This document shows, piece by piece, positions 17,325 through 43,021 of a stretch of DNA of 47,769 nt. How positions within the stretch are numbered: position 1 is the first letter of the stretch; each line of letters opens with the position of its first letter. The notes below the pieces were generated by a model. That model saw only the letters and a list, made by a program, of their open reading frames with translations, did not search any database and was not told where the DNA came from. A program made the position numbers and the translations under genes. Origin of the DNA: a virus; IMG/VR virus record IMGVR_UViG_3300035670_000350, positions 1 through 47,769 of that record; one strand, 5' to 3'.

Positions 17325-18122
17325 TCAAATATCCCTTTGCTGTGTTGGACTATAAGTTCTACCATCGAAGAAGAGTTCTAATGATTCTGCAAATCCATAA
17401 TCATCATCTGGTTCTGCATCAACTGGATCAGGAGTAACTGTATATCTCATTTCTCTCTTAGCAGTTTGAATATTAGTATCAGTATAGTAATCGACCTGAA
17501 CCTTACGGATAAGACCATCGGTAGTATCGGAGATTGGACCAAAGAGATATGTTTTTGCAGTAAAGTTTAAAGTATAAATTAAAACTCTTCTTGTAGAAAA
17601 ATCACCTTCATAATCATCTTGGAATGACACATTATCTAATACTATTGGAATATCTCTTTTTTCTCCAATAGAATCTAATAAATCTACTGTCAGATTAAAT
17701 GATGGTTGAAAAAATGGCAAAACTTGCTCTACAACTTGTAAAGCATCATCGTTCAATTTGCATAGAATACTTAGTTGGAATCCAATATTATATGGAACTG
17801 GTAAATATACCTTCTTTAAATTAGTTCCGTCAGATGCTTTAAAGGACTGAGTAACTCCAGACTTTCTTGTAGAATCATAAGCGATAGATGTCATTTCAAA
17901 TGACATTCTAGGTAAAGTAATTGCAACTGGCTTTGATAAGTCTTGTTGTTGCTGCACTTTTGCAACAAACTTTTGAATGGGACCATATGCTAAGGGAACT
18001 TTTATATCTGAAATAGTATTATCGCTTTCATCCATATGTTGAATATGAATATCATTAAATAGTGTTCCAAAAGCAATAATAGTTTTTCTTATTATCTGAT
18101 GATAAAAATAAGTTCCTAGCAT
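17325..18122 (-). CDS. gp15: Tail sheath stabilizer / completion protein gp15
   Basis: The 265-aa product matches T4 gp15 (272 aa) in length and position. It caps the tail as a hexameric terminator and joins tail to head through gp13/gp14. Visible features are MLGTYFYHQIIRKTIIAFGT at the start (a conserved family opening), a VPYNIGFQLSILCKLNDDAL segment followed by QVVEQVLPFFQPSFNLTV, and the DTTDGLIRKVQVDYYTDT segment. The TAATG overlap with gp14 upstream suggests translational coupling. The C-terminal ~40 residues are acidic. Confidence 0.94.
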   Translation of the reverse strand: MLGTYFYHQIIRKTIIAFGTLFNDIHIQHMDESDNTISDIKVPLAYGPIQKFVAKVQQQQDLSKPVAITLPRMSFEMTSIAYDSTRKSGVTQSFKASDGTNLKKVYLPVPYNIGFQLSILCKLNDDALQVVEQVLPFFQPSFNLTVDLLDSIGEKRDIPIVLDNVSFQDDYEGDFSTRRVLIYTLNFTAKTYLFGPISDTTDGLIRKVQVDYYTDTNIQTAKREMRYTVTPDPVDAEPDDDYGFAESLELFFDGRTYSPTQQRDI

Positions 18123-21146: not shown

Positions 21147-24100
21147 TCAAGCTAATGCAATTGCTCTAATATCTCTGATAATTGGTGGTTTTGATTGATC
21201 AGTTCCTGACATTACAATCTTCAGAGTAAATCCTACAAATTCTTTCAGATTTGGAGCAGTATACTCATATTCACGATATTCATTATCTGCACTTGGAGCA
21301 ACTCTAGTATCTGGAAGACCACTATTTAGTGATGGATTGACAATATCTAAGTAACCATCTTGGTTGTTATCAATTGTTAAGTTTTCATATCCTGGGAATA
21401 ATGTAAATGCCTGATCAACCTGATAAGAGTCTGCACTTATTAAATTATAAAGAACTCTAAAGTCTGAAGATGAATTTCTGTATGCAGTAATAATGACTTT
21501 TAGTGATGTTGCTGGTTGTGCTAGTAATACTGGATTTGAAACATATCTAGCAGCGTGAGAATTGTCTTCAATTTCATTTGCTCTTCTATCAAAGATATAG
21601 TTTGAAACTGGATTATCTAATCTTGAAATTGAGAAGTTAGTTACACAACCATCCAAGAATACCTGTGGAGATAAGTTTAAATCTGTTGTAGATAGAGTAA
21701 GAGCAGTAGTGAATGATTTAGAATTTGGAAGTTCTGCAAGATATTGAGTTTCATTAGGTCTAGAGCATACCATTCTAGGAGTGACAAATTTATTTTCAGC
21801 GTTCAATTGTATTTGTTGATATCCCAAATCTAGGAAAGGTGTTTCATTTCCTCCAGCACTTGTCCCACTTATAGTTCTAACGGATGCAGATACTGCTATG
21901 TTTGAACCAGGACCATAAACATCAAAAGATGGTGTAATTGTATCAAAAAGTAAATTTTGTGTAGATAAAATTTCTTCTCCACCTACAAAATCTTCCTTGT
22001 TGAAGGACAACTGAGGTGTATTTGCTATTTGTACAGAATCCCCATTTCTATTTGGTCCTAAAGTTGAACCGGAAGTGCGACTTATTTGAATGTAATAAGT
22101 ATCAATATCGCCTTTAATTGTAGATAATGTATTTTCTCTGTTTATTCTTCTCAAAGAAATGCCGGAAAGTTCGTACTTCATGACAAGCTCTCCAGGATTG
22201 TAACTTATACCTATGGTAGAATCTATACTTCTAGTTAATCCTGTTAAAACTCCACCATTTGCAACACCTGTGTAACTAACAATCTCACTACCAATTTTAA
22301 TATATCCCGGATTTGCTGCACTAACAGGTATTCCCTCAAACGAATCAAAACCAATTGTAGATGCTATGCTAACTTGCTGAGAATTTGCATTAAATTCTGA
22401 AACAAGTGGTTGAGGTGGTAAATCACTTTCAACTCCAGTTATTGCAACTCTGTTTGCAGATGAATACATATTGTGTCCAAAATGAGACACTTTCATTATA
22501 TTTCCTTGATAAATTTCACTTAATGTAGTTGAATTCAATATACTAAGTGATGAGCTAGTTCTTGCTCCAGCATTATTAAAATATTGTAAAGTTGCAGCAT
22601 TTGTAAATGTCTGTCCCTGTACGTTTGTTAAGTAAATTGTATCATAATCTGTAACTGCAGAAATTGTTATAACTGCACCATTTCCAGTATTTCCAGAAAC
22701 TGAAGAAGTTAATATACCAACAACATCTCCAACTTTATATCCACTACCACTAGTATTTGCAGTTACTGATGTTACTGTACCATTAGTTGTTGTTATATCT
22801 AATAATAATCCACTACCATTTCCACTAATATTGAATGTTTGGGCACCAGTAGTGTTGGAATAATTTACACCTCCGGTTGTAATTCCAACAGTTCCTGCAG
22901 GACCACCTAGACCCTCAACAAATCCATAATTATAAGTTTTTACACTTTCACTAACTTTCCTACCAACATTTAAGTTGGTAAAAATAGAATCCCCAGTAGC
23001 AGTAGTTGTTATTCCAATTTTTAATTTTCTTGGATAAACTACTATTGGATTAGAAGGTAGTTTTCCGAAGAAAGAATTGGATGTAGTTGTATTTAATGGT
23101 GGATTGTAGAAAAATACAGTTCCTGTTGGGTTAAATCTTGCTTTATATAATTTAAACTTAAGATCTTGATTTTGGTCTGCAGTCCAAATAGAACCATTTT
23201 GAGACTTAAACAAACTACCAATTGCAAATTGTTTGGAGTATTTAACTCTCTCTGCTTCTGGTAAACCTGTTAGGAATTGTGTATTTAATGAAGGTTTATT
23301 CATTTCAGCAATAAAAACTTCATATCCTACACTCTCCGGTGCCAATAATACAATTGCATATTCATCATCTGGTGCTAAGAATATAGGATATGGGAATACC
23401 ACAGTTGTTGCTAATGAAGCATCTTCTGAAATATTTTCTTTTAACTTTCTTCCGTTTGGAAGTGTATCATCTGGTCTAAGAGTTACCGCTTCTCCAATTC
23501 TAGTAAGAGTTGGAGTTCCCAACTCCATAGTTCTAACTTCAATAGTTACAGGACTATTTCCAGAATCAACTTTCCTGAAATAAATGTCCACGGCAGTTAG
23601 ATATACACCATTTCTGTCCGCTATTGGATTTATATTTGAATTTTGTGGAGACTGTGCAGTTCTACCAACTTCAAATGACTGTGCAAGAGGGTCATATCTT
23701 TCTAAAGTTGTTGTTCTATTTGTTCTTGTAATAGTTGTAATATTGGTAGTTGTTACTAAATTAGTTGTTGTAATAGTTGTTTCATTTTGAACAGTTCTCA
23801 ATAATCCAGTTGCTTCATATGAAGTTTCGGCACTAGAAATCTCCTTGCTTCCTGGAAGTGGAGTTGCATTTGTGGGACTATTTGTAAGCTTATAAGTTTT
23901 AGTGCCGGTAGAAATTCTTACAGGTGGTCTGGGGTCTATATTTGGATCATCTAAGAAGAAGCATCCTTGGAGATCTCCATAAGCATCTGATACTAATCTA
24001 ACTCTAGTAACATATGCAACAGCTTTACTAGTTTGACCTACAAGTTTAGTTGCGGTGGTTACGAATCCATAATAATCACCAATAGTCTCTGCAGAGAGTG

Positions 24101-27100
24101 ACTTAGTGTCTATATTCAGATATCCCAAACTACTAGTATAATTAGAAGGAAGAGTTATATTCCTATCATATGGACATCCTCCATAGGTTGATTCTGGTGC
24201 ATTAAAAGGTCCATTTTTATGATTTGGTTGAGCAACTTTAAATCTAATTACCTGTTTACCTACACTATCGTAACCAATTACATCTTCACCAATTCTAAAA
24301 ACACCATTTGATCCAGTCGGTTTAATTTTTGACACATCATCAGTAAAACCTGGAAGAAGGACTGCTCCTGGGGATCTTACTGAGAGAGGTAATTCGGTTT
24401 CAGATAAAAATTTTGAAATCTCTAATATTTTTGGTACGAATTTAACACCACTTTGACTATCTAAGAATTGATAAAATCTAGAAAATGGCATTAAATTAAC
24501 AGCAAAAAATTCAGTATTTCTAGATCTCATATATTTTTCATCTTCAACATTTATCAATCTAGTAACAGTACTTGATGTTGATGATGATGTAGTATTTGTT
24601 GTAGTATTTGTTGAAGATGTAGTAGTAGTTGTTGTCTGAGTTATTCTAGAACCATTTCTAATTCCAAGTTCTGGATTTACTACTACAGGTCCTGTGCCCA
24701 TAGTAAACGTAAAATTAGCACCACTAGACCTTAAAGATAGTAAGGTTGCATCAAACTGTCTTGCTGGCACTCTAGTAAGGCCACCATCAACATTAACAGT
24801 ATTAGTTCTTGTTTTATCAATAGTGTTATATATTGTATTTGATTTTTGTATAATTTTATCTGGAAGTTTTCTATATGTTCTTACCCATCTATCATTATTT
24901 GGAGATAGAGTTACTTGACCTCTATATTCTACAACATGGAATGGATTGACATTTTCAACCTGTGTTGCAATAGGTTGTTCTATCCAAGCAACGTTGGTAT
25001 AATCTAATGATAGTGTTGAGGGGGAATTTGGATCTCCAGTAAATCTAATATTTCCGTCTTTACTTCTAATAATTCTTTTTTTACTTAGATTGTCTAAATC
25101 ATTTGTCCATACTGTTTCTGGTATGTTGGGTAATGTATTTTCAAATCTAATCGGAGCTAGATGTTGCTCAAGAGAGTCAACTTCAGCCGCAGATAAGAAA
25201 GTATCCACATAAGAAGTATCTTTAAAATCATCAACAAAAAATCCAGTTTTAAAACGATTTAGACCATCAGCATCTCTAATTTGTAAATTTTGAGTACTTG
25301 ATTCTAATAAAGAAAGTGAAGTTACCTTTTCCAAGGTCTTTACTCTTGTTTCAATCTTTCCAATATCTCTCATAGTATATCTTCTATTGCTTTCTAGTGC
25401 AATAAAAGCATCTTTTGCATTCTCAAGGAAAGGTGGATAATAAATAGTTGCCAACTCCATAGCAGCATCAATTTTTTCTGGAGGAGAAGGTATTGCTCCA
25501 GGATTTCCATTTTTAATTACAAATCTACCTTGCCTATCTAAGAATATCTTATCAATTCTTGCAACATAATATTCAACACCAAGAATTGAAACTTCATCTG
25601 GAGCAAGAATCACATTCAAATTTGTTGGGTTTGTAACAAAATCCCTTGAAGAAAAATCAAATGGCGAATATGAAATTAAAGTAACATCATCTATAGATTC
25701 AACTCTAGGTCTGAAATCCAGCAACTCTGAAGCAGAAATATTATCTGGACCAACTCTAGGAATTAATGATAGATATTGATCTCTAGAATAACTTAAAACT
25801 GTAAAAGCATCTCCATTATCATCTTGAGGTACTGTATAGTGATCAAAAATTACTGTAATCTTTTTAGATGGTTCTGGTTCTCCAGGTTTCCTGACCAACC
25901 TAGAATAATCATAGTACTGAGTTTTTTGTCCACCATTTAAAGCATAACTGTTAGTAATATTTTTATACTTACCTAAAATAATATCATCAATTTCAGTAGT
26001 TATTTCAGATTCTTTAAATGATACAGTTTCGCCCTTTACAAATCTATTACTATTTAAATATACGAATTCAATATTATTTGGGGAACCAATTGGTTTTCTG
26101 ACTAATTGGCAAACAGCACCTGAAGTTTGACCAACAATTTGTTCTCCTATAATTGAATTGTTTGCAACGTTTACAAGAGAACTAAAAGTTAATTGATCTA
26201 ACTGTGGAGAATTTGAATCAAGAGATTCAAAAACTGCTATAATTTTTGCAACATCAGGATAATTCAAACATATTTCTTCGTCCTGAACTCTAAGACCATA
26301 ATATTCTTTATATGTTAATCCATCAGATACGGAAGAATTCTCCTGATCTCCAGATTTTTGATACTTTGAGTAAATTACATCTACAACTTTACTCTTATTA
26401 TAAACTTTTACCTTACTTCTAATTCCAGATTTAATTAAGGTTGCATTAACCTTATGAATATCTTTATTACTAATTCCACTAAAAGTTACCTGATTTTGTG
26501 CAATATCCAAATCAAACTTATCTGAACTTAAAGTTTCTGTAGTTCCATCTGTATAGTGGATTGAATATCTTTCTTGATCGAATCCTTGGAACGATGCAGT
26601 ACTTAAACCTATTGGTAAATCGAAAGAACTTGAATCAACAACCAGCTCATTTCCTGTTACCGTACCTAAAGTAGAATCTGCCTGCGATTTAAATGTCAAT
26701 AAAGAATTTTGCAAATCTACAGAAGATACGTTTGTTAATGGTAGCTCAGCGTACAAAGAACCATCATTATAAGAAACTATACTTGGTATTCTTGAAAATA
26801 TTCTAATAGAAGATGTAGTTCCAGCACCAATAGACCCATTACAAACACCAGAAACAGTAGAAACTGCCTCTAACTGCATAGATGTTCCATCAGGAGATAT
26901 AGATGAAACTCTGTTATAGTACGGAACAGTTTCAATAGTCGAATCACTATCACCTCTAACATAAGAAATGATAGTATTTGTTGTTATTCCACTAAAGAAT
27001 TTGCCGGGACAAGATACTTGCCCTGTAGAATTAATTCTGAAAACATCTTGGGAAGAGAATCCTGGCAATAAGCTTTGGGAAAGTAAGGAGTCTGCAATAA

Positions 27101-28760: not shown

Positions 28761-28763
28761 TTG

Positions 28764-30338
28764 TTAGAATTCCAAGATGATTTTTATGTCTTCTTTTTGG
28801 CGAGAGTTTCTTGAGACTAATGGTCTATTGTCAATATATAAAACATCTCCCGTCTTTTTATTTATCTCAGGATTTGCAAGACCATTTGTAAATTGTGTTG
28901 CTAGGTTTATAATTTGCCCATTAATTGTTGTACTAATACCACTAAACCCAGTATCAACACTTCCAGAAAAACCACTAGTTGTAGCAGTAACTGCTCCACC
29001 ATCTGAACTAAATTCTATCTGTGGATTTCCACTAGTAGAAACGCCAATGTAATCCGTAGTATCGTAAGTAGTTTGATTATAATATAGAGATCTTTCTTTA
29101 AAGTATTTCATTACTTTTGTTGTTGTATCGTAAGATGCAACATACCCAACAGCAATACCTGATGAAACTGTTTGAATTATTTTTTCTCCAATCTGAGGAG
29201 AAAAGGTATTTGTATTTGAGAATTTTATTGAGTATAAACTGGAAAATTGATTTTCAATATATGTTTCTGTTGATAAAAACTTTGAAGGATTTTTTATTAG
29301 AGAAATCTGACAGAAATTAGTATCTGTTGGAAAATCTCTAGTTGAGTCGTCAAATCTGGAGTACAATAGAACTCTATCTGCTCCTAATTCTCTATATAAA
29401 TCATATCCATGACCACGGGAAGGTGGTATAATTGGAATTAATTTTGCTGGAAATGGAATAGAATTACTTGGTTGAAGTGTTCCTAAATCAACAATTCCAT
29501 ATGTATATCCTTTACCACCTGAAGTTACAGTAACGCTGGTTATTTCGCCATTAGTATTCACTTCAACAAAAGCTTTTGCTCCAGTACCGTCTCCCAGTAT
29601 ATTGACTTCACCACTAATATAGTTTCTTCCCGATTCTTCAATATAAACTTCCTTTATTTGATTATTATTTAAAGAAGAATCTGCATTTTCTCTTATAGAA
29701 ACTATCTGAGAATCTGTAGATGTTTCCCAGTTGTTGGGTAAAGTTATAAATTCTGTAGAATCAAACTTTACAATATCACTTGGAGCAACTGTAAAAAGGT
29801 ATTTCCAAACATAACCATCACCACTTTCTCCTGCTTTGGATGGTTCTAAATCAGTAAATGTTGGTTCATCTTCTGACGAGTTTCCTGAAGGATTAACGCC
29901 AGAAGCACCGTTATTCAAACAAATATAAACTCTATAGTCACTATTCATTACATAATAGTTGGCATCATAAAGTCTAGATTTGCCAGTAACAGGCGTTAAG
30001 TTACTGATGCTGTAGTCATGGCGATACATATCATATTTTGCACCTCTAACCCAATCAATTCTTCTTATAACACGTCTTACATTACTTTGATTTACCTTTT
30101 TCCCAAATAGAGATACATCTCTATATTGACTTAGATAATCATCATTATCTGTTGGATTGGGAACTACTCCAGTTCCAATTACGTTAGGACCATCCCATTG
30201 AGGGTCTCTAGCAAATCCTGGAGAATTTGGATTTGGGAGTCCTAATGTAATATAATATGAATTAGATCCATCATTAAAAGAATCAATAAAGTTATTAGTA
30301 TTTAAGATTCTAAACTGATCGGTTACTATAGCAGGCAT
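28764..30338 (-). CDS. gp8: Baseplate wedge protein gp8
   Basis: The product is 524 aa (T4 gp8 is 334 aa). The N-terminal half is recognisable: AIVTDQFRILNTNNFIDSFN, SYYITLGLPNPN, RRVIRRIDWVRGAKYDMYRH, then YVMNSDYRVYICLNN and GDGYVWKYLFTVAPSDIVKF, the classic gp8 core. Gp8 dimers sit in each baseplate wedge and bind gp7 and gp10. Residues about 230-290 add GSGY-type repeats (ESGRNYISGEVNILGDGTG; TSGGKGYTYG) absent from T4. An exact late promoter box lies 18 nt upstream of the ATG, and the DUF4815-like giant follows after 3 nt. Confidence 0.93.
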   Translation of the reverse strand: MPAIVTDQFRILNTNNFIDSFNDGSNSYYITLGLPNPNSPGFARDPQWDGPNVIGTGVVPNPTDNDDYLSQYRDVSLFGKKVNQSNVRRVIRRIDWVRGAKYDMYRHDYSISNLTPVTGKSRLYDANYYVMNSDYRVYICLNNGASGVNPSGNSSEDEPTFTDLEPSKAGESGDGYVWKYLFTVAPSDIVKFDSTEFITLPNNWETSTDSQIVSIRENADSSLNNNQIKEVYIEESGRNYISGEVNILGDGTGAKAFVEVNTNGEITSVTVTSGGKGYTYGIVDLGTLQPSNSIPFPAKLIPIIPPSRGHGYDLYRELGADRVLLYSRFDDSTRDFPTDTNFCQISLIKNPSKFLSTETYIENQFSSLYSIKFSNTNTFSPQIGEKIIQTVSSGIAVGYVASYDTTTKVMKYFKERSLYYNQTTYDTTDYIGVSTSGNPQIEFSSDGGAVTATTSGFSGSVDTGFSGISTTINGQIINLATQFTNGLANPEINKKTGDVLYIDNRPLVSRNSRQKEDIKIILEF

Positions 30339-30356
30339 TATTCAAAGTTTTTTTTA

Positions 30357-30364
30357 TATTTATA
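30357..30364 (-). promoter_or_regulatory. Late promoter box for gp8 and the 2537-aa gene
   Basis: Minus strand TATAAATA, exact consensus, in the 30-nt gap between the 1596-aa gene and gp8. Confidence 0.75.
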
Positions 30365-30368
30365 TCAA

Positions 30369-33300
30369 TTAAATAGAGTTGATTGCTTTCTTTATGGAAC
30401 CAGTTTCCCGAAGACCATACCCTCTTCTTTGAATTATTGGATAAGTTGATAATCCACTTGTAGAGGTATTGCCATCTATATTCAAACTTATAGGATTCTC
30501 AGATCTACTAAATCCACTTATTCTTCCCCAAGACATTTTTCCTACTGGAGATGTTATTGTTCCTGAAGTTTCAATTCCAGAAACATTAGTAGTGGATAAA
30601 ATATTACAAGTTGCAATTCCACTATTTAAATCAAAAGAACTGACATAGTAGATGTTATTAGTGAAATTAGTGCTTATTGATAAAACTTCACTATCGTTTG
30701 AAATAATTGAAATGGTCCCATTTCCATTATAAGTTCCAAAAACATATATTGGATATCCAACTTGCAGTTGAGATAATCCTGCAGGACGATAAAGCTCAAA
30801 TTTAAGTCCTAAATTAGTGCCAATTCCAGGACAAGTGTTTATAGAAACGATACTTGCTTCATATCCAATAACATTACTACAGTTTGAGAGATACTCAATT
30901 CTAGGTCTTGGTGCTTCCACAATTGTTTGCGGTAGATTAACAGAATCGTAACCAGAACCGCTACTAATAATTGATACTGGTAAAGATGCTTGTCCATCAG
31001 ATACTGATAAAGATGCTGAAGCAACAGTCCCATCTAGTGGTTTTGAAAACTTAACTTGAATACTGGTTCCAATATATCCACTACCAGCATTATCAATAAC
31101 TAAGTCAGTAATAGAACCTCCAACAGAGACTACGGGAGTCACCGAAGCAGTAACTAAGTTTTCATTTTCTTCTGAATATAATAATAAGTCAAAGTCAACA
31201 TTATTTGGATTATCATATTCAAATAATGTAACGTTATCTAAAAATATCTCATTTGTGCTTGTATCAACTGACTTTATTACTCTTGAAGTTGGATATATTT
31301 GAGATTCTAGTAAATCTCTAGATTTAGATACATTCTCACCATTAATGATTACATCTCTTTTTTGTTTTATCCAAGATAAAGGTCTTTGATTTATGTCATC
31401 AACTCCAGGACCAGTATAAATTGCAGTTTCAATTCTATCTGATGCTGCAATATCTGTTATTATTCTTCTTTCCTGAGTTATAGTAGTAGTTAATAATTCA
31501 TTATTTTTAAGGACTTGGATTTCATCCCCAATTCTTAATGTTTCATTTACATTTACTTGAACAGAATCTTCATCCCTTGTACCCAAATAGAAGAATATTG
31601 ATATATTATCTTCTGGTTTTGGTGGTAGTGTAAATGTAAAAGAGGTTCCTCCATTAAACTGATAAGATTCTCCAGGAACTTGTAAAATACCATTTACGAA
31701 AATTATAAGTAATGAATCTAAATCAATTAATTGAGAATCTTGGTCGGAAGGATTAATCTCAAAACTGAGTAATTCTGAATTATAAAAGAGTGGAAATCTT
31801 GTTCTAGATCCATCTTGGAAATTTTTAATAGAATCTATGTAATTTAATTCCCCAAACTGCCAAGCAGCAAATGAATCATTAAAAACATCCAAAACTGTCA
31901 ATTGAAATTCACTTATCGGTTGACTTAAACCCTTTGCAGTAACTAATCCAACCGGCTTAAAAATATCACCTCTTCTAAACCCATATCCATTTCTTGCTAC
32001 TTTAAAGGAAGTAACTTCAAATGTAGTTGAACCTATTCCAGAAGTTGAGCTTGCACCTACTTCAACATTTAAAAGTAATCCAGTACCAGTATCTGTAGTA
32101 TTACCAATACCAAGTCTAGAAACTCCCACTACTGGCAAATATTCATAAGATGGTGGAGATATAATTATGGATGGATTTGTATATCCTGTACCGGAAGATA
32201 AAATGTTTAATGATAGGGTTCCTCCTGCCCCTACAGTTGCCGATATACTAGCAGATGAACCAACATGTCCAACTTCCGTAACTGCAATAGATACGGGATT
32301 TCTATACCCAGAACCAAATGTTAAATTTGAATACCAAGGATAAACCGTCCCAAATCCCACATAGTTGTGGGGTAAAGTACTAGTTCCTACTTGAACTGAG
32401 AAATATGTGCTTCCAACACTAGTTATATTGAGAGGTTCATCGTGACTTGGAAAATATGATACAATACCGGGATTTGATGGACAAGTAAATGCTAATCCAA
32501 CTAGTTTTACTTGAGTAGCATCGTTCAATAAACTTACATTTTGTGTAAAAATATCTAAAATTCCATTTTCATTATTATATGATACTGTACTAAATGCTAT
32601 TGGGTTTCCAGTACTTGCTGTTCCAACTATATTTACGATAGAACCACTTGAATTTAGTATTGGTATGACTTTTGCCCCTACAAGAGGCGCATACCCAAGT
32701 CCTGGGGTAGACCCAAGTGAGACAATTAAACCTCCTCTAGGAAGTTGGTTTTGATTGACATCAGATTCTGATATTATTATATTACCATTCTCATCAGTAA
32801 TACCAGTAAATACTATGCTAGTTATTCCAACGTTAGTATCCTCAATAATTTCAAAATTATTATTAGTGTTATTTAAAGTTGTTGGTGTTTGGAATATTCC
32901 ATTTAAAAATACTATTCCATTTCCACCACTAGTACCCAATCCAACAGTATTAATACCTTGAACAGTAACAGTATAATCTTGGTCTAAACCAGTAAACTTT
33001 TCTGATATATTATCGTATATTACATTACTATCATAATTATTTCTTAAAAATACTCTTCCATTAAAAGTTGCTTTATTTCTTCTTAAATTACTAAAATCTA
33101 AGTCACTCACATAAAAACTACTTCCTCTTGGTGGATTAGTGAAATGTATTTCATTTCCAACTATATTATAGGAACCTCTATAAATTCTACCTTCATCACC
33201 ATCTAAGTGAAAAGTTGCAGAGGTGCCCACATAACCTCTATTAACTTCAACTAAAGAATAACTACCTTCAAATGTAATGGGACCGTTACTGGTGGTTCCA

Positions 33301-35159
33301 ACACCCACATTAGTAACGTACATGAATTCATCATTAACTTTCAACAAATCTGTTGGACTTATACTACTAATTCCACTTAAACTAAAGATAGTAGATTCGG
33401 TACTAATTTGTCCACCATTATCAGTTAAAACATAAGATAGTGAAGTATATGCTAAAGGATATTGAGTTAAATCATTTATAGAAATTAAAGACTTTTCATT
33501 CTTTTTAATCATTTCAAATTCATGGGCATTTCCTTCACCATTTGATGTAAAGGTGACAAATATTCCTGCCTGAGCATATTCTTTTCTTGTTGCTATTTTA
33601 AACTGGTCATTATTAAGTTTTATAGCATAAACTCTATCTGGTAATATACTTGTTAAAGACCCTGTATAACTTAATGTCTGACCGATTCCAACAGCGGTAG
33701 CACCGATACCTAAGAAGCTAGATTTTGGAGTGTAAATTAGTTCTTCACCTGTACTAAAAAAGTGATTTCTTATATTAAAGGTTCCTGTTTCTTTATTTAA
33801 AACACTTGTACTGGATGGATTAAATCTTTTTGAAAAAATGGGCGTTCCTTCATACTTTAGTACAAAATCAGTTTTATTAATATCTTCTAAGTTGGTTCCA
33901 AAAAAAGTAGAGGTTTCTAAAGATTCTCTGTTAGGCAAATACTCTAAAGGTGGATATTCATTACCAAAATCTAAAAATGTGTAAATATTTTCATTAAAAG
34001 AAAGTATCTCTATATTGCCATTAAATTCCGAATCTGGATAAAACTTTATTTGAATATTATTGCCAGAATATTCTCCACCAAAAGTTCCAATACCAGAAGT
34101 GCTTCCTATAGAAAGAAATGGATATTGTGCTACTTGAATTTTTTGTCCATCATGAACCGTTAATAGTTGATGTAGTGCTGTGGTACTTCCAATTCCAACT
34201 TTTACTAGAGATTTGATTGATGTAAATAGACTTTTATCTAAAGATATTACAGTTCCTGGATTTCCTGAATTTGTATATGAAATATTGGATTCGTAAGTTG
34301 CACTTCTTTCAAAACCATCTGGTTCTGTTTCTGATTTAAATCTATAAATTCCAGAACCAATTGATGTTGAACCAAATCCAACATTTCTAGTTCTTACAGA
34401 TATTGTATCTATAGATGAATCATTTACAAAATCTAATTTTAAAAGTCCTCCAGAAATATAAGAAGTAAAGGTTCCAATATATCTTCCGTTATATTGGTCA
34501 ACATCATCAAAATAAAACTCACTCAGATAAGTATTTTCGCCATCATGTGTTAAGTATATTTCGACATAAGTTTTATAATCTAAAGCAGTATTAATTACAT
34601 TTAATGACGCATATACTGAACTATACTCATTTACATCTAGAGATAAAATATTTTCAGTTGATAGTGGTTCAATAAGAGAGTTATTTGCAAATAAATCAAC
34701 ATATCCAATAGAAACCGTATTTATTCCTATAGATCTTGTTACGAATTCATTTTTTAATATTTTAATATCATAGTTAAAATCATTAGGATTTGTTGGTTCA
34801 AATCTCAAATACATATTATTTAATCCATCAACAAATCCATAAACGTCAGCAATTAGTTCACTACCTTCCTTGTTAGTCACTAATCCTTTAGTTAATGTAT
34901 AAATGTCATTATCATCACTTAATGTAATTAGTTCTGCTAATTGATATTGTGTTCGTGAAGAATCTATAATTTGAACCAAAAATCTATTGTAACTTCTTGT
35001 AGAATCTATCGTCAAAACATTAGAGAACAGTTCCCTACTATCTTCCGCACTTGAGAATTCGGAACTAATATCATCTATCTGCAAAACTCTATTAGTTTTG
35101 AGTTCAATATAGTTTGATAGTTTTGTATTTTGTAACTTTAGGAATTTTGATTTTGACAT
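30369..35159 (-). CDS. Large baseplate-associated virion protein (1596 aa)
   Basis: Begins MSKSKFLKLQNTKLSNYIEL with a following RVLQIDDISSEFSS, an opening I associate with cyanophage structural proteins between the gp7-like and gp8 genes. Almost the whole protein is beta-rich with recurring glycine motifs: many VGIGSTT-type hexapeptides, an NHFFSTGEELIYTP module (about residues 460-545), a KVNDEFMYVTNVGVG module (about 600-650), and GSGY repeats (about 960-1010 and 1345-1415). No enzyme signature was seen. Position argues for a baseplate wedge or fibre role, partly taking the place of T4 gp7/gp10, but the assignment is inference. It starts 20 nt after the stop of the 2613-aa gene with no good late box between. 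Confidence 0.85.
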   Translation of the reverse strand: MSKSKFLKLQNTKLSNYIELKTNRVLQIDDISSEFSSAEDSRELFSNVLTIDSTRSYNRFLVQIIDSSRTQYQLAELITLSDDNDIYTLTKGLVTNKEGSELIADVYGFVDGLNNMYLRFEPTNPNDFNYDIKILKNEFVTRSIGINTVSIGYVDLFANNSLIEPLSTENILSLDVNEYSSVYASLNVINTALDYKTYVEIYLTHDGENTYLSEFYFDDVDQYNGRYIGTFTSYISGGLLKLDFVNDSSIDTISVRTRNVGFGSTSIGSGIYRFKSETEPDGFERSATYESNISYTNSGNPGTVISLDKSLFTSIKSLVKVGIGSTTALHQLLTVHDGQKIQVAQYPFLSIGSTSGIGTFGGEYSGNNIQIKFYPDSEFNGNIEILSFNENIYTFLDFGNEYPPLEYLPNRESLETSTFFGTNLEDINKTDFVLKYEGTPIFSKRFNPSSTSVLNKETGTFNIRNHFFSTGEELIYTPKSSFLGIGATAVGIGQTLSYTGSLTSILPDRVYAIKLNNDQFKIATRKEYAQAGIFVTFTSNGEGNAHEFEMIKKNEKSLISINDLTQYPLAYTSLSYVLTDNGGQISTESTIFSLSGISSISPTDLLKVNDEFMYVTNVGVGTTSNGPITFEGSYSLVEVNRGYVGTSATFHLDGDEGRIYRGSYNIVGNEIHFTNPPRGSSFYVSDLDFSNLRRNKATFNGRVFLRNNYDSNVIYDNISEKFTGLDQDYTVTVQGINTVGLGTSGGNGIVFLNGIFQTPTTLNNTNNNFEIIEDTNVGITSIVFTGITDENGNIIISESDVNQNQLPRGGLIVSLGSTPGLGYAPLVGAKVIPILNSSGSIVNIVGTASTGNPIAFSTVSYNNENGILDIFTQNVSLLNDATQVKLVGLAFTCPSNPGIVSYFPSHDEPLNITSVGSTYFSVQVGTSTLPHNYVGFGTVYPWYSNLTFGSGYRNPVSIAVTEVGHVGSSASISATVGAGGTLSLNILSSGTGYTNPSIIISPPSYEYLPVVGVSRLGIGNTTDTGTGLLLNVEVGASSTSGIGSTTFEVTSFKVARNGYGFRRGDIFKPVGLVTAKGLSQPISEFQLTVLDVFNDSFAAWQFGELNYIDSIKNFQDGSRTRFPLFYNSELLSFEINPSDQDSQLIDLDSLLIIFVNGILQVPGESYQFNGGTSFTFTLPPKPEDNISIFFYLGTRDEDSVQVNVNETLRIGDEIQVLKNNELLTTTITQERRIITDIAASDRIETAIYTGPGVDDINQRPLSWIKQKRDVIINGENVSKSRDLLESQIYPTSRVIKSVDTSTNEIFLDNVTLFEYDNPNNVDFDLLLYSEENENLVTASVTPVVSVGGSITDLVIDNAGSGYIGTSIQVKFSKPLDGTVASASLSVSDGQASLPVSIISSGSGYDSVNLPQTIVEAPRPRIEYLSNCSNVIGYEASIVSINTCPGIGTNLGLKFELYRPAGLSQLQVGYPIYVFGTYNGNGTISIISNDSEVLSISTNFTNNIYYVSSFDLNSGIATCNILSTTNVSGIETSGTITSPVGKMSWGRISGFSRSENPISLNIDGNTSTSGLSTYPIIQRRGYGLRETGSIKKAINSI

Positions 35160-35179
35160 TTTGGAAAAATTAATTAAAA

Positions 35180-38100
35180 TTAAGATATATCAACATCAAT
35201 AACTAAGTCAAAGTTATTAATAGTATCTACTCTAGATTCTTCTATAAAATCACGAGTTATTGAAACATCAGAATCTCTTGCTGAAGAAATTCCTGGTGTT
35301 GAATTGACATTTACTGTTTCTATAAATTCAGTATCTGAAAAGTTTTTTAACCCACTTGTATGTAGTAAACTATTTACGGGAGAAACTATTTCTTCCCAAG
35401 TTTTTGTACTCTTTACTGTATAAGATAAATTCTGATAATAATCATTATCAGGAATTACTTGGAAAGAATCGCCAATTTTTCCAGTATCATTAGACCATCC
35501 TATATTTTCAGTACTAAAAGAATTAACCTCAAATCTTCCTGAAGATTTTTTGACAGAATCTATAGTAGATAGGTTAAATGATTCAGATCCTCTAATAATT
35601 TCACCTTTAGAAAGTTCATAAGTGCCAAATAATCTAACAAAAGTATCTGTACTTTCTTTTACAACCAAATCTCTCAATTCAAAACCAAATCCATTATCTG
35701 AATAAATTTTTTCACCAACAAAAAATCTTCCTGGAGATTGTATTGATTTAAACTCTGGATAATTTTGCTGTTTTATTATAGATGCAAATGAGTCTTGAAT
35801 TGTTTTTGCAACTCCAGGATTACTTGTAAGTGAAGATAAATTATATTCTAGTCTTCCTGGATTTGAACCTGAAACATAATTTGTTATAGTAAAGAACTGA
35901 TAATTGTAGTCAGAAGAATTAAATCCATCACCAGAGACACTATCCTTTACTATACCTTCAACAAAAATTTTATCTCCAGTAGTAAATGGATCTGTTCCAA
36001 ATCCTGATATAGGAGTAGTAAGTATACAAGTTACTAATCCTGATAATGAAGATTGAACTTGACTTATAGAAATTCCATTACTATTGTTAATTGCCTTTAT
36101 AATAGCTGGCGAAGATGGAAGACCTTTTGAAGGAACTTCTACAGTTACTGATCCTACAGATACACCAGATAAATTAGCTCTAAGGATACCATTATCGACT
36201 ATTTCATTTGTTTCTGGATTTATTACTATTAAATCTGGCGATGAAAGATAATTAGTTCCAGGACTAATTATTTGAACTTCACTTATTTGTTGATTATTTT
36301 TAATTGAACATAATGAAGGTAAGGAAGCTTCTGGTCTTAATGTTTTATCTGAAGAATAGTCAAATCCATTAATAACTATTCTAGTTTCTTTTGGAGATCC
36401 TATTGTCTTTGATTGTGGTACTAAAAATGCGCCTACTCCGTTTTCACTATCAATTCTTGAGAATGTAGGAACTTTTTTATATTCTGCAGATTTATTGAAT
36501 ATTTTTATTTTATGAACTCCACCTTCTGCTGTTGTAGAATTTGTAGTGTATTCTAAAATATTGCAATCAGATTCACTATATGCTAAAGATTCGGGTCTTC
36601 TTTTTAGTGATATGTTGAAAGTTGTAGATGCAACTCCTTGAGTGTTATAAACTTTATAACTTCCAGTATACTCACTATCAACAAAAGAAATAGATGAAAA
36701 ATTATTAACTTCATCATCAGGTAAAGTAATTACTGAATTTTTTTCTACAGTATAGAATAGATTAGATGGAATATCTTCTGAATATTTTAAGGTAAGTGAC
36801 GCATCTGAAGATATTCCAACAGTACCTATTCCTATTGTTGAAAACTCATTAGAAGTTTGTACAGAAATAAACTCTTTTGTAAAAGTATTATCATAGAATA
36901 ATTTTAAATTATATCCAACTAGGCTTGAATCTCCTAAATTAAATGATAAATTATTATTCTTTATAATATCAATTGGTGGATTTATTTTTGATATTGACTG
37001 TCCAGTTCCACCTGAACTAGTGATACCAACAGTTAGTGGTGGAATAGAGGTGGCATCTAATAAAGTTTGTGATAACTTAAAATTATCATCATCTACTTTA
37101 AGTATAAAATACTCACCTTCGGATAAACCACCAGCAACAAAGTCAGTAGAACGATAATATACTTTATCACCAGTTGAATATCCATGAAGAGATAAATTAA
37201 TTGTACTTGTTGTAGTATTTACTCCTAAGTTTGAAATATTTCTTTCATCTAAAATCAATAGATTATTTTTTTCAATATATTTTACAGTAAAAGTAGTAAC
37301 ACCAATATTTGAATCAGTTTTTAATGATAATTGGATATTATCATTTTCCCTCAATAAATGAGGTTCATCTAGTACTACTGTAGTTTTAAATCGTTCAACT
37401 GTACATTTTTCTTGTACAAAATTAGATTCTATTGAATATAAATCACTATCATCTCCATTATTGAAGAAAAATAGTCCATTACTATAATAATCTGTGAATG
37501 TTGAAATACTTACAGGAGATTGGAGAGCGGTAACTATTCCAATATAGTCTTTTGATTTGTTAATTACATATACTTCTTGAAAATCGCCAGAGAATGGGAG
37601 ATTAAATATTCCCGAACCTGGAGTTTCAGAAACTAATATTGGAGAACTTGTACTTGGTTTTCTAAGAATTGCTTTTTGATTATTTTTAAATGGGTGATTT
37701 GGTATGTATATTGATTGAACTGGAACTGAAGTACTTACTTTTGTTTTTCCAATATAATAATTAAGGGAATAAGTACTTCCTGGAGTTGTCCCTACACCAA
37801 CAGAATTATTTGGATTAAAGTAAATCTTATCATTTAATCTTGAATCAAAATTAAGAGATTCTTCATCAATTAAAAATGAATCGGGGATAAAATAAACCTC
37901 TGAGGTTTCTGTATGAGCCGTACCAACACCCGTTCTTAAAACTCTAAGTGTATTTAAACTATTATATACTCCTAGAACAGATAAAGTTTCACTTCCAATT
38001 GTTATAGAACTTCCAACAGAAATTTGAGCAGGTATATTTGTTAAAACAATATCAGTAACAATTCCAGTAGTTGCTGTAGTTCCTAAATCAAATGACAAAT

Positions 38101-41100
38101 TACTTACAAAGGTTGTAATACCAATAGTATATTCTTTGGCAAACTTTGATAAAGACTCGGAAACATCTGAAATTATAATCTTATCGTTATTCTCTAAATC
38201 ATGTCTTGGAGGTATAGTTACTTTTATTTGATTATTATCAACCCATGTTAATATTGAATTTTCATATTTATTAATTTCGGTACTTAAACTTTCAATATTT
38301 TTTCCTTTTACTTCGGATACTCTTGCAATAATACTTGTCTGGACATCATCAAATTCATCGAATATAACTCTATCAGATACTTTATAATCACTACCAGGAC
38401 TAATTATATTGAATCCAGTTAAATCTCCAGCATTAATTGACTCTATTATTAATTTTTGCTGTTGTATTTCATTTGATTCTACTATATAATCATTCTTAGC
38501 AAAAGGATCGCTGACTTTATATGGTAAAGTATTTCTAATTAAATTAGAAGAATTAAAATCAAAATTTTGATTTAAAAGAAGGTTATCTAATTGATCAAAA
38601 TTAGTTCTATAATAATTTCCAATAAAATATGGGAACTTACCTATTAAAGAATTCAAATCATATGGATTAAATTCTACAGAAGCAAAGTATGCATAAGTTC
38701 CGTTTGGAAATTCTGGAGTTTTGCAAAATCTTCCATTATATTCATCCAAATCTCCAGAACCATCAAAGGAATAATCTTCAACAAAAAATCCATTATCAAA
38801 TCCAGTTGGTCTATTTTCTACAGTTGAAAGAACATATCCAGGTTCTAGAATTTTAATTTGAGAATCTGGATCATCTGCATCAGAATATCCGTATGGTCCA
38901 TATATTGGATTACCATCATATGCCCATCCTATTATAGGAGAATGACTTAATCCATTATCTCCAAATTTAGAAGATATTTCAGAAGAATATCCTGAAATAT
39001 AATATTGTAATGTATTATTAGGAGATTGTGAAACTATTTCTTCGGATGGAAGTCTATAGAATGTATTTGGTGATATTTCAATAAATTTTCCAAACTTATA
39101 TGAATTGTTTACCGTTAAAGGTCTTATATCCAAATCAAATTTTGCATTAGTTCCTGCTGAAAATGGAACAACTGCGGTATTTTCTAAAGTGTATCCAGAA
39201 CCAGAATCTATTACAACAACATCTACAATCTTGTTTGCCTGAACTACTGGTCTTAGTACAGCTCCAGAACCATCTCCAATTACATTTATGTCGGGATATG
39301 AATAATAATCAACCCCCCCATATTGAACTTGAACATCTACAATTCTACCATTAACTATAATTGGTCTAAATTGAGCACTAGAACCATTTTTTACTATTAT
39401 TCTTGGGGTGGATTTTAAATTGAGAGTTCTAGAACCATAATCACTACCACCCTCATATAGGTAAACGTCTGTAATTTCTCCCCTAACAACAGGAGTTGCA
39501 GTTATAGTGCCAAGAACGGAGGTGGTTCCTATCCCAGGGGAAGAGTAAGTAACTACTAATGATATATCAGGATATTTAAATACTTGATATCCACTTCCCG
39601 TTGAAGTAAACTTGACATAGTTTTTTCTTTCAAAATTTGAAGTGTTTGTTCCACCTATTCCAGCATCACACAATCTAAATTTGTCATTATCAATTTTTAG
39701 AATATTATACTTTCTATCCGTAGATAATCCTGTTATTGGACTTGATACTTCACTCAAACTATCTTCATATGAGTAATCTACAAGTTCTCCATCAGAAAAT
39801 CCATGATTTATAAAGTTAATAGTGTAATCTGAAGTTGAAACTCCTACTGACTTTACTCTTAATTTTCTATTTGTATATCCACTACCTTCATTTAAAACCA
39901 ATATTTCTTTGAGTCTATTAGTTTGCGATGTCTTAAATTTATGAACACCACGATTTCCGATAGAAGTTATACCAATAGTATTAATTCCTGCAGAAAAATC
40001 AGAGAATGATGGATAAACTTGTACGGTAGTGTCGTTAAATATTTTTACATAATACTCTCCACCATCAACAAAATTATCTCCAGTTTCAAAATTTTGACCA
40101 AAATATGAACCAATACCAAGTTCATCGTTACCATTTCTATCATATATGACTACTTGCCCATCTACTAAGTTGTGAGGTGAAAGGAAAGTTATAGTTTCAA
40201 TATCAAAATCAATTCCACCACCATCTGCTATTTGTCTAGCATCAAATTCAATTTCTCTTTGGAAAGGTACGATAACTGGTTCAAACTCAGCACCTGAACC
40301 ATTTCCACCAGAAATTTCTACTGACACATTTACATCAATATCGAATGTCTGTAAATCCACATATATTTTCTTTACGGAACCAGAAACTACAGGTTGTAAC
40401 TTGGCATTTCCTGATGAAAAATCAAGCAATGGTGGATTAATTACATCATAACCTATTCCTGGATTTAGAACTCTAACGTTTTCAATTGGACCATAGTAAA
40501 TTTTATCATTTGTCTTATAGCTGAGTATCTCAACACCATTAGACAACATACCAATAGGACCAGGAATAACTTCATTTTGACCTGATTCGCCAATTTCTGG
40601 ATTTATCTTGAATCTTCTTAATAATTTTTGTGGAGATATTTCTAAATTTCTTTGCTCATATAAAACAAATCTATGAGAACCAGCAGGTAATGTACCATTA
40701 ATGTTAGAAAATTCTAAGTAATCATTACTACCGACAAGTGATAATGATGTATATAATCTAATTTGCCTCTTATTAGTTAAAACTTGAACGTAATAGTCCC
40801 TCTCTTCCAAAAATTCTATTGGAGAATTTGAAAACTTATAATAAATTCTATCTCCAGTTAAAAAGGAAACAATCTCATTAAACTCTAATATAGAATATTT
40901 TTCAGTTTCTGGATTATAACTAGAAATACTTGATACATTATAAACATATACATTCGGATCAATATCATATGATGGTAGAGAATTGGAAGCAACATATAAG
41001 TTTCTATCTTCTTCATTATATAAGTTTAATATATCAGAGATAACTGAATTATTTCCATACTTTATGGGAACTATACTAGAAGTGCTTACTGCTTTCTTTT

Positions 41101-43021
41101 GAATTCTTCTTATGTCATAGTTTTCAGTTACTATAAGAGATGGAGGTGTTAATGAAGAATTAACAGTTACAGTTTTTCCATCAATATTTGTTATTTGTAC
41201 ATTTGTTAACCCAGGAACAACTATTTCAGTATTTCTCTCCAAGAATTCTATGCTATCACCAACTGCTAAATTTGATTTATCAATATCACTAAAAACATTA
41301 AATTGATTTCCAGAAATAGTAGTAGAATCTATCTGGAATCTACAGTTAGTATTATATACCCAAGAGTTTGCTAGAATTTCTTTTCTGGTTTTTATTTGAT
41401 TTTCTGGATTTTTAATTACTTCTCCAAGATTTTTGACAAAAATTTCATCTCCTTCGATATAATTAAAACTATCTAAAGGATTTTCTGGTTCTTTAATTAC
41501 TAATGATGATAACACTCCAGTAGTTCTAAATTCAACTTTTCTAGTTTGGTCTCCGTTTTCAAATCCATAGTAAGTTTCTAATGTAGTGATGTTGTCTTGC
41601 TTACTTAATAATAATGTATTGTCAGAATCAGTATAGCAGTTAAAAAATTGATTTAATGTTTTTTCAGTATAAAAAACTTTTCTACCGTTAAAAGTAAAAT
41701 ATCCACTTTCAGGAAATCCTACTGTTGAATCTACACTTACTATTTCAGTTGAAGTTTTTGTAATTAAATTATTACTTGAAACTTTTGTGCTTGGAGTAAT
41801 TGTAAAATTTCCAAATATTGATGATGATACATCATCATATCCTATAAAGAGATATAGTTTATAATAGGTTTTTCCTTCTTTTGTTATTGGTTCTACTTCA
41901 GAAACAGAAGCATATGTATTCGTATCATTTGTTTTGAATATAGTTTGCCCTCTAAGACCAAGAGGATTTCCACTAATTCTTTCTACTACAGAAACTTCCC
42001 TTCTGATAAATTTAGCATCTGAGGGTTTAAATAAGTACTGCTCTAGATCTATTACTCTTGGGGTTACTCCAAATAATACATTAAATAAGATTCTAAAAGA
42101 TTCTTCTGTGCCTTTAGTTTCATATAAAGACCTTGCCTCCTTTATAAAGTTACCAACATTTAATTCTGGTATAAAATCTCTATCTTCTAATCCAGGAACT
42201 AATGTATATTTTATTTTCTTATAAAATTCCTGTAAAAATAGAACACTAAGGTTTTCTACAGAAGACCCTGATGTATGAGAAGAAGCATCAGATTCTGAAA
42301 AAACTAATTCTTCTGGTTCATTATCTTGATGATAATTGGTAATTCCACTAAAACCCCTAACACAACCTAAAAAGGACTTTTCTGTTTTTTCAGTATATGT
42401 AATGATTTCATCATCAATTTTTATTAATCCATATTTTTCAGGAAATCCTTTAGTAGTTTCAACATCAATAACTTTTGAGGCTGCTGAAATATTTGAAGTT
42501 AATGTGGTAAAACCAACAATAACTTCAGGAATTAAATTGTCTAAATTTAGATATTGATCTAAATTATCAATTAAATCTATAGAAGAACTTTGATATTCTT
42601 GTGATATGTAATATTGTTTTAAGAAATCTATAAATTTAGTGTAGTCAGTAACTCCAGAACGTCTGTTAGACTGCTCTAACCCTACGACAGTTGCATACTG
42701 CTCAAAATTTACAGTACCTGAAGTTTTTCCAGATACTTCATCATCTACTGTAAATGTATCTTGATTTATTACAGTTCTTACTGAATAGAAACCGTTGGTG
42801 CCAGAACCACTAATATATTCTAATTTTAGTCTATCAGTTTCCTCTAATCCATGATTTATGGATGTTATTGTTACAGTTTTTCCACTTCTAATATAAGTAC
42901 CAGACCCACTAATAGTACTTTGTACTTCTTCAGATACTGTAACAGTATCCCTAATAAAAGTTGGAAGTTGACTTTCAATTATTTGATATACTTTTATTCT
43001 ATCTTCAAACTGTCTTGGCAT
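35180..43021 (-). CDS. Giant baseplate wedge protein (gp7 position) with YHYH domain (2613 aa)
   Basis: Begins MPRQFEDRIKVYQIIESQLP, directly after gp6 where T4 has gp7. Residues about 130-400 (YTKFIDFLKQYYISQEYQSS; KYTLVPGLEDRDFIPELNVG; EESFRILFNVLFGVTPRVID) look like the structured wedge part. Downstream come repeated modules: 'HG..tGD.v.Y....Y.i....d.F.l' type (near residues 45-90, 945-990, 1065-1115, 1880-1900 and 1940-1980), 'GFPe.G.i.I..e.i.YT' type (190-235; 425-465), and GSGY-type repeats. At about 1340-1445 sits a YHYH-like domain: SHSPIIGWAYDGNPIYGPYG, then NGRFCKTPEFPNGTYAYF. The product is far longer than T4 gp7 (1032 aa). The wedge role is inferred from synteny; the YHYH domain is recognised from sequence. 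Confidence 0.85.
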   Translation of the reverse strand: MPRQFEDRIKVYQIIESQLPTFIRDTVTVSEEVQSTISGSGTYIRSGKTVTITSINHGLEETDRLKLEYISGSGTNGFYSVRTVINQDTFTVDDEVSGKTSGTVNFEQYATVVGLEQSNRRSGVTDYTKFIDFLKQYYISQEYQSSSIDLIDNLDQYLNLDNLIPEVIVGFTTLTSNISAASKVIDVETTKGFPEKYGLIKIDDEIITYTEKTEKSFLGCVRGFSGITNYHQDNEPEELVFSESDASSHTSGSSVENLSVLFLQEFYKKIKYTLVPGLEDRDFIPELNVGNFIKEARSLYETKGTEESFRILFNVLFGVTPRVIDLEQYLFKPSDAKFIRREVSVVERISGNPLGLRGQTIFKTNDTNTYASVSEVEPITKEGKTYYKLYLFIGYDDVSSSIFGNFTITPSTKVSSNNLITKTSTEIVSVDSTVGFPESGYFTFNGRKVFYTEKTLNQFFNCYTDSDNTLLLSKQDNITTLETYYGFENGDQTRKVEFRTTGVLSSLVIKEPENPLDSFNYIEGDEIFVKNLGEVIKNPENQIKTRKEILANSWVYNTNCRFQIDSTTISGNQFNVFSDIDKSNLAVGDSIEFLERNTEIVVPGLTNVQITNIDGKTVTVNSSLTPPSLIVTENYDIRRIQKKAVSTSSIVPIKYGNNSVISDILNLYNEEDRNLYVASNSLPSYDIDPNVYVYNVSSISSYNPETEKYSILEFNEIVSFLTGDRIYYKFSNSPIEFLEERDYYVQVLTNKRQIRLYTSLSLVGSNDYLEFSNINGTLPAGSHRFVLYEQRNLEISPQKLLRRFKINPEIGESGQNEVIPGPIGMLSNGVEILSYKTNDKIYYGPIENVRVLNPGIGYDVINPPLLDFSSGNAKLQPVVSGSVKKIYVDLQTFDIDVNVSVEISGGNGSGAEFEPVIVPFQREIEFDARQIADGGGIDFDIETITFLSPHNLVDGQVVIYDRNGNDELGIGSYFGQNFETGDNFVDGGEYYVKIFNDTTVQVYPSFSDFSAGINTIGITSIGNRGVHKFKTSQTNRLKEILVLNEGSGYTNRKLRVKSVGVSTSDYTINFINHGFSDGELVDYSYEDSLSEVSSPITGLSTDRKYNILKIDNDKFRLCDAGIGGTNTSNFERKNYVKFTSTGSGYQVFKYPDISLVVTYSSPGIGTTSVLGTITATPVVRGEITDVYLYEGGSDYGSRTLNLKSTPRIIVKNGSSAQFRPIIVNGRIVDVQVQYGGVDYYSYPDINVIGDGSGAVLRPVVQANKIVDVVVIDSGSGYTLENTAVVPFSAGTNAKFDLDIRPLTVNNSYKFGKFIEISPNTFYRLPSEEIVSQSPNNTLQYYISGYSSEISSKFGDNGLSHSPIIGWAYDGNPIYGPYGYSDADDPDSQIKILEPGYVLSTVENRPTGFDNGFFVEDYSFDGSGDLDEYNGRFCKTPEFPNGTYAYFASVEFNPYDLNSLIGKFPYFIGNYYRTNFDQLDNLLLNQNFDFNSSNLIRNTLPYKVSDPFAKNDYIVESNEIQQQKLIIESINAGDLTGFNIISPGSDYKVSDRVIFDEFDDVQTSIIARVSEVKGKNIESLSTEINKYENSILTWVDNNQIKVTIPPRHDLENNDKIIISDVSESLSKFAKEYTIGITTFVSNLSFDLGTTATTGIVTDIVLTNIPAQISVGSSITIGSETLSVLGVYNSLNTLRVLRTGVGTAHTETSEVYFIPDSFLIDEESLNFDSRLNDKIYFNPNNSVGVGTTPGSTYSLNYYIGKTKVSTSVPVQSIYIPNHPFKNNQKAILRKPSTSSPILVSETPGSGIFNLPFSGDFQEVYVINKSKDYIGIVTALQSPVSISTFTDYYSNGLFFFNNGDDSDLYSIESNFVQEKCTVERFKTTVVLDEPHLLRENDNIQLSLKTDSNIGVTTFTVKYIEKNNLLILDERNISNLGVNTTTSTINLSLHGYSTGDKVYYRSTDFVAGGLSEGEYFILKVDDDNFKLSQTLLDATSIPPLTVGITSSGGTGQSISKINPPIDIIKNNNLSFNLGDSSLVGYNLKLFYDNTFTKEFISVQTSNEFSTIGIGTVGISSDASLTLKYSEDIPSNLFYTVEKNSVITLPDDEVNNFSSISFVDSEYTGSYKVYNTQGVASTTFNISLKRRPESLAYSESDCNILEYTTNSTTAEGGVHKIKIFNKSAEYKKVPTFSRIDSENGVGAFLVPQSKTIGSPKETRIVINGFDYSSDKTLRPEASLPSLCSIKNNQQISEVQIISPGTNYLSSPDLIVINPETNEIVDNGILRANLSGVSVGSVTVEVPSKGLPSSPAIIKAINNSNGISISQVQSSLSGLVTCILTTPISGFGTDPFTTGDKIFVEGIVKDSVSGDGFNSSDYNYQFFTITNYVSGSNPGRLEYNLSSLTSNPGVAKTIQDSFASIIKQQNYPEFKSIQSPGRFFVGEKIYSDNGFGFELRDLVVKESTDTFVRLFGTYELSKGEIIRGSESFNLSTIDSVKKSSGRFEVNSFSTENIGWSNDTGKIGDSFQVIPDNDYYQNLSYTVKSTKTWEEIVSPVNSLLHTSGLKNFSDTEFIETVNVNSTPGISSARDSDVSITRDFIEESRVDTINNFDLVIDVDIS

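Follow-up and report, generated by a model that had tools for sequence, protein, structure and literature searches.

Do several virion proteins of one virus carry copies of the same glycine-containing repeat and, if they do, how did the copies arise and what might they be for? The question is raised by a 47,769-base stretch of DNA, the IMG/VR virus record IMGVR_UViG_3300035670_000350 (hereafter the window, analyzed at its full length), whose structural genes resemble those of T4-like cyanophages. A preliminary description had proposed that a GSGY-type unit is shared by at least five structural proteins, that it spread through gene-internal duplication and recombination, and that it forms an exposed decoration or carbohydrate-interaction module of neck, wedge, and fibre proteins. 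The proteins concerned, all encoded on the minus strand, are the neck protein gp14 (18122-19537, 471 amino acids [aa]), the baseplate wedge protein gp8 (28764-30338), a 2537-aa protein (21147-28760), and two proteins of 1596 and 2613 aa that belong to the gp7 wedge family. We found that a repeat of about 40 residues common to neck and baseplate proteins is real, with four carriers in the window.

An initial profile made from the four gp14 units alone was run on 26 window proteins. It ranked gp14 at the top, followed by the 2613-aa protein (E = 2.5e-5), gp8 (8e-4), the 1596-aa protein (1e-3), and the 2537-aa protein (0.06), with the remaining proteins at 0.29 or worse. An improved gp14-only profile, comprising 118 distinct gp14 units from 30 non-redundant orthologues, gave 19.2 bits for gp8, 18.2 for the 1596-aa protein, and 13.0 for the 2613-aa protein, and these scores were equalled or exceeded by none of 200 shuffles of each sequence, so the matches of these three proteins are better than random. 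An unrelated protein (5873-6523) scored 1.6 bits (E = 0.36), more than any of its 200 shuffles, and was not counted as a carrier. The profile was also iterated for five rounds over 1487 open reading frames (ORFs) from the window and fetched loci, along with 2974 reversed or shuffled decoys, at most one of which reached at least 12 bits in any round. Since the window lay inside the searched set, the iterated E-values are self-fed, and the independent figures are those of round 0 and of the 118-unit profile. In addition, alignment of the gp14 insert to gp7 aa 800-1480 with hhalign returned a probability of 97.1 (E = 7e-11), compared to 0.1-1.3 for reversed and column-shuffled controls. Counting matches to a gp14-derived profile across the window proteins, as had been suggested, thus yielded 16 units in four proteins after iteration: four in gp14, two in gp8, three in the 1596-aa protein, and seven in the 2613-aa protein. 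The GxGY-P module, as we call the repeat, scored above shuffled controls in all four, which leaves the proposed fifth carrier, the 2537-aa protein, as a weak case.

The four gp14 units are contiguous or nearly so and occupy aa 206-246 (18800..18922, 52.5 bits to the gp14 unit profile), aa 248-292 (18662..18796, 48.6 bits), aa 293-332 (18542..18661, 41.9 bits), and aa 333-373 (18419..18541, 50.8 bits). gp14 had correctly been named as a carrier, but its gene falls outside the range (21147-43021) originally assigned to the repeat. For the other three proteins, the positions agree with those first reported. In gp8, the span 29502-29684 consists of aa 219-253 (29580..29684; 8.6 bits with the gp14-only profile, 25.6 iterated) and aa 254-279 (29502..29579; 12.7 and 26.3 bits). 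The 1596-aa protein carries one unit at aa 970-1004 (32148..32252; 8.7 bits gp14-only, 30.0 iterated) and, within 30909-31151, two more at aa 1337-1375 (31035..31151; 13.9 and 26.6 bits) and aa 1380-1417 (30909..31022; 10.5 bits iterated, with a P-SSM2 counterpart scoring 41.7 bits to this slot). In the 2613-aa protein, the sites already listed are aa 841-872 (40406..40501, 20.1 bits iterated), a group within 39167-39502 formed by aa 1174-1212 (39386..39502, 8.5 bits iterated), aa 1216-1253 (39263..39376, 32.7 bits iterated), and aa 1254-1285 (39167..39262, 19.9 bits iterated), and aa 2238-2271 (36209..36310; 13.2 bits gp14-only, 26.7 iterated). Two further units, aa 1032-1058 (39848..39928, 12.3 bits gp14-only) and aa 1528-1555 (38357..38440, 12.0 bits iterated), were absent from the earlier list.

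The evidence for repeat units in the 2537-aa protein is suggestive only. Its window copy scored 0.2 bits against the 118-unit gp14 profile, a value matched or beaten by 74 of 200 shuffles, and the stretch named for it (22640-22890) reads GSGY and then KVGD. Two diverged units may nonetheless lie at about aa 1946-2011 (22728..22925), a weak assignment based on orthologue and hhalign scores: the gp14-only profile scored two of 37 sequences (the window and 36 relatives), orthologues from loci L282 and L246, at 15.3 and 14.7 bits, and profile-profile comparison of the site gave a probability of 16.9 and an E-value of 1.5e-3, against 0.034 for the best of five column shuffles. None of the six VrlC/DUF4815 orthologues in named phages had a unit at 12 bits or more.

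The fold of the module was examined in AlphaFold2 (AF2) models. The gp14 model, built on 37 orthologues, had a mean predicted local distance difference test (pLDDT) score of 66.9 with a poor core, and ten-residue blocks over aa 201-380 scored 76-94; the gp7 model (34 fragments, aa 800-1480) had a mean pLDDT of 87.5. The predicted unit consists of a strand A of about 7 residues, a tight turn, a strand B of about 9 residues, the GxGYxxxP turn, and a strand C of about 4 residues. In gp14, these strands were placed at aa 208-214, 218-226, and 236-239 (unit 1), 250-259, 262-272, and 283-286 (unit 2), 294-300, 303-311, and 322-324 (unit 3), and 335-340, 346-353, and 363-366 (unit 4). The gp7 strands, in fragment numbering, were 418-424, 427-435, and 445-449 for the unit at aa 1216-1253 and 456-462, 465-473, and 484-488 for the unit at aa 1254-1285; the unit at aa 1174-1212 has predicted strands at aa 1175-1190 and 1208-1211. 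Across the four gp14 and these two gp7 units, the distance between strand starts was 9-12 residues from A to B and 17-21 from B to C. The order A-B-C is therefore alike in both models, which were compared by strand order and are predictions only; within the limits of prediction, this speaks against different folds for the separate regions and for a module common to neck and wedge proteins. Information content peaks at Gly21, Tyr24, Gly23, Pro28, Asn19, and the alternating I/V positions; positions 1 and 39 also had very high values, which are edge effects of trimming. Conserved sites thus comprise the hydrophobic core together with the Gly, Tyr, Asn, and Pro residues of an N-x-G-x-G-Y-x3-P turn, and they look fold-determining. 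Structural comparison with VIA-align returned rows for gp14 aa 192-439 at a Z score of about 6, and gp7 aa 1214-1288, which contains two units, could be overlaid on T-cell receptor constant domains only at Z = 4.4-4.7 (over 65-68 residues), a score too weak to be relied on. As the rows for the repeat are weak, we make no claim to a new fold. Matches in a library of predicted viral structures included neck, wedge, YHYH, and P22 gp10-like proteins and one giant-virus protein, the matching part not being indicated. The sole PDB match of the unit profile, an antibody light chain at E = 0.88, was taken as chance.

The genes themselves could be assigned to known families. gp14 matches PF11649 (head closure Hc2) at E = 1.1e-30 in its N-terminal core, aa 3-183 align with T4 gp14 (chain 9mkb_0) at E = 3.1e-26, and its nearest relatives in named phages, those of S-SKS1, S-SRM01, and P-SSM2, are 50-54% identical. 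gp8 belongs to the T4 gp8 baseplate wedge family PF09215 (50.7 bits, cut-off 25), and the 2537-aa protein is a DUF4815/VrlC protein (phrog_358). Both remaining proteins match phrog_2885, the cyanophage gp7 baseplate wedge family, the 2613-aa protein covering profile positions 30-2505 and the best stretch of the 1596-aa protein covering 2514-3331; judged from this profile coverage, they are the first and second parts of gp7, which in P-SSM2 is a single protein of 5195 aa. The split lies at 35160-35179, where 20 bases separate the stop of the first ORF from the ATG of the second. Of the fetched ORFs with the gp7 flanking segments, 88 had both in one frame, 10 the second only, and 3 the first only.

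Named phages were surveyed with the iterated profile, counting matches of at least 12 bits (none of 332 decoys reached 10 bits). Units were detected in gp7 and gp8 of P-SSM2, P-SSM4, P-HM2, and S-SM2, in gp14 of P-SSM2, S-SM2, S-SKS1, P-HM2, and S-SSM7, and in the fibre proteins P-HM2 096 and P-SSM4 087, and in none of the 12 T4 proteins tested. The gp14 array is followed by a small barrel (aa 375-440, 18218..18415; inside the region aa 192-439 aligned by VIA-align), and the named phages form a nested series: gp14 of T4 and HTVC008M has neither module, that of P-SSM4 has the barrel only, and those of P-SSM2, S-SM2, and S-SKS1 have barrel and units. Given that the P-SSM4 protein aligns with the barrel and lacks the array, the array appears to be an insert within an insert. 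Another HTVC008M protein, I899_gp055 (L326:33435-36485, 1016 aa), lies at the gp7 position, carries two units, and is annotated as "head closure Hc2", a label for which the shared units are the likely cause; the real gp14 of that phage is found at L329:10846-11718.

Beyond these phages, a tblastn search with the gp14 insert retrieved 346 phage records, whose names begin with Synechococcus (274), Cyanophage (48), Prochlorococcus (18), Marine (5), or Bacteriophage (1). At E = 1e-3, the insert matched 18 PHROG families, one of them its own, annotated as connector, wedge, hub, fibre, or unknown; three shuffles and the reverse of the insert gave no PHROG match with E below 0.09. Neither the Pfam scans nor those of NCBIfam returned a family for the repeat, plasmids gave no match to it, and no paper on it was found in the open-licence literature. 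In a scan of cellular genomes, one Phycisphaerales and one Acidobacteria metagenome-assembled genome matched, and sampling of the two phyla gave profile matches in 9 of 149 and 10 of 99 genomes, starting genomes included. The matching proteins are secreted ones, and Pfam searches of six of them detected a multicopper oxidase domain in two (one also with FN3) and DUF11 in one. One Phycisphaerales multicopper oxidase (L334:2082-7292, 1737 aa) contains two groups of GxGY units, six in all, which precede its Cu-oxidase_2 match.

To follow the ancestry of the copies, we compared units by position. The comparison loci were the best 80 relatives, a set biased toward near ones that the named phages partly offset, and 15 window units (at least 8 bits with the final profile) were scored after exclusion of the same-virus loci L009, L084, and L244. 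The unit at the same position in another phage outscored any other unit of this phage for 15 of 15 units by best score and for 14 of 15 by median, the exception being the unit at aa 1380 of the 1596-aa protein. Similarly, in a tree of 120 units, from which units with fewer than 24 aligned residues were excluded and which has few columns and many weak forks, the 15 position labels required 15 changes (minimum, 14; shuffled mean, 95.5). Position-specific profiles, to which the same limit of 24 aligned residues applied, recovered the P-SSM2 units in the same order at 15 of 15 slots, the fourth gp14 unit by only 1.3 bits, and those of S-SKS1 in gp14 (4/4) and gp8 (2/2) and of S-SM2 in gp14 (3/4). 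The position-wise clustering and the P-SSM2 order indicate that copying and placement of the units preceded the split of the closer phages. Copies thus group with their orthologues and not with their neighbours in this phage, which is the reverse of what a recent spread through gene-internal duplication and recombination would give. Such a spread could be read from the clustering of units by protein (6 changes against a null mean of 9.8, as low in 1 of 300) and from the longer arrays in P-SSM4 and P-HM2 gp7, but it is contradicted by the same-slot scores and the tree for the comparison set used, and we rejected it as having next to no probability. Instead, since clustering by protein exceeds random, duplication within proteins plausibly occurred at some time as an old event, so that the earlier proposal of gene-internal duplication may hold for the distant past and not for recent history. 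Later growth and loss of arrays took place in some lineages among the phages compared.

What the module may do can be approached from its conserved residues and its context. We favour, with moderate confidence, a homologous structural beta-module that enlarges and stiffens the surface of the neck and the large baseplate, with copies placed long ago and inherited by position. According to the profiles and predicted models, a single module of about 40 residues, with three beta strands, an alternating I/V core, and the conserved turn, would occupy loops in the core proteins of the virion, with single or paired units in gp8 and gp7 and an array of four within a second small barrel in the C-terminal arm of gp14. 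There it would broaden and stiffen the outer surface and provide area for protein-protein contacts, while arrays would have grown or shrunk in some lineages. An excerpt of a study of T4 reports that the gp14 arm (aa 178-256) contacts gp15 in the virion (PMC12270204); by analogy, the units are probably surface exposed and may contact gp15. Several results weigh against this proposal. Foldseek searches of the PDB matched only the core of the gp14 model, leaving out the repeats, and returned no match with an E-value of 1e-3 or less for the gp7 fragment, and a sequence search of the PDB with the gp14 insert gave no experimental structure that contains the units. Several units of P-HM2, S-SSM7, and P-SSM4 do not correspond one to one with window slots, which leaves room for later exchange. 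Moreover, gp14 of P-SSM4 (308 aa) and HTVC008M (290 aa) has no units at 12 bits, and the units are therefore dispensable for the neck.

This sporadic occurrence, including the absence from T4, is what a merely tolerated insert would display, one that spreads by recombination among extracellular and virion proteins, folds by itself, does no harm, and mostly has no specific role. The scattered cellular matches inside multicopper oxidases, which suggest a generic insert, and the nesting of the array within another insert in gp14 fit that account as well. It has to contend with slots kept over wide divergence, because their retention in P-SSM2 suggests selection for the sites, and we consider it rather unlikely. 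A carbohydrate-binding decoration for weak attachment to host or environmental glycans, the role first envisaged, has a precedent in the neck carbohydrate-binding modules (CBMs) of lactococcal 936 phages (PMC6669499, in excerpt). However, no CBM or lectin family in Pfam matched 22 insert members or, with E-values allowed up to 1, any of the five proteins, no conserved exposed polar or aromatic set exists apart from the turn Tyr, and the cellular copies are housed in multicopper oxidases, so that on sequence grounds this role appears improbable. The lack of a binding-site-like set among the conserved residues, together with the cellular context, instead favours a structural module. Finally, the units are short and diverged, the best paralogue pairs in the window being only 30-46% identical, as would be expected of glycine-rich beta sequences that converged without common descent. 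Such convergence would have to explain why shuffled and reversed controls fail, including those of the PHROG search, and why the strand register is alike in the gp14 and gp7 models, and we regard it as very improbable.

The unnamed module most likely belongs to a known kind, the promiscuous beta modules of virions. Immunoglobulin (Ig)-like domains of tailed-phage structural proteins, reportedly treated by Fraser et al. in 2006, are likewise small, promiscuous beta modules that occur sporadically on several virion proteins; the unit described here differs in its length of about 40 residues, its three strands, and its GxGY-P turn, and, up to E = 1, none of the five proteins matched an Ig-like Pfam model. 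The BACON repeats of crAss-like phages (PMC6949934) are also tandem beta-domain repeats of a phage protein, whereas the present units have no BACON match in Pfam and are common to neck, wedge, and fibre proteins. The 936 neck-passage CBMs resemble them as extra neck modules but differ in being CBMs. In the window, the longest array belongs to a homologue of T4 gp14, the head closure Hc2 family (phrog_460 and phrog_679, PF11649), and both array and barrel are missing from the T4 protein.

Other modules recur in the same proteins. The gp14 barrel was detected in the 2537-aa protein at aa 870-923 (25992-26153), with 12.7 bits and, after one iteration, 39.0 bits (best decoys, 5.6 and 7.8). Both gp7 parts contain an endosialidase-barrel-like module (39575-39865, 39929-40261, 36998-37237, and 33513-33806), and comparison with solved structures superposed its copy at aa 1053-1149 on the endosialidase barrels of phi92 and K1F (Z = 6.0-7.0, 24-25% identity); PF12195 matched weakly at aa 45-94, below its cut-off. 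Directly after GxGY units of the 2613-aa gp7 part lies a YHYH domain (PF14240, E = 3.8e-28, 38666-39007), for which an excerpt of a jumbo-phage review gives a predicted metal-dependent hydrolase function (PMC7824862).

Taken more broadly, we tentatively suggest, at somewhat less than even confidence, that GxGY-P is an unnamed three-stranded domain family, mobile among the neck, wedge, hub, and fibre proteins of marine myophages and among secreted bacterial proteins and able to nest, and that the cyanophage neck and baseplate are built from a small common set of beta modules that can replace one another. Abundant marine phages carry the module repeatedly in their neck and baseplate proteins, no Pfam or NCBIfam family was returned for it, and it can mislead annotation, as with I899_gp055 of HTVC008M. 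Read from T4 via P-SSM4 to P-SSM2, the nested gp14 series offers a testable path by which a core neck protein may have gained surface modules.
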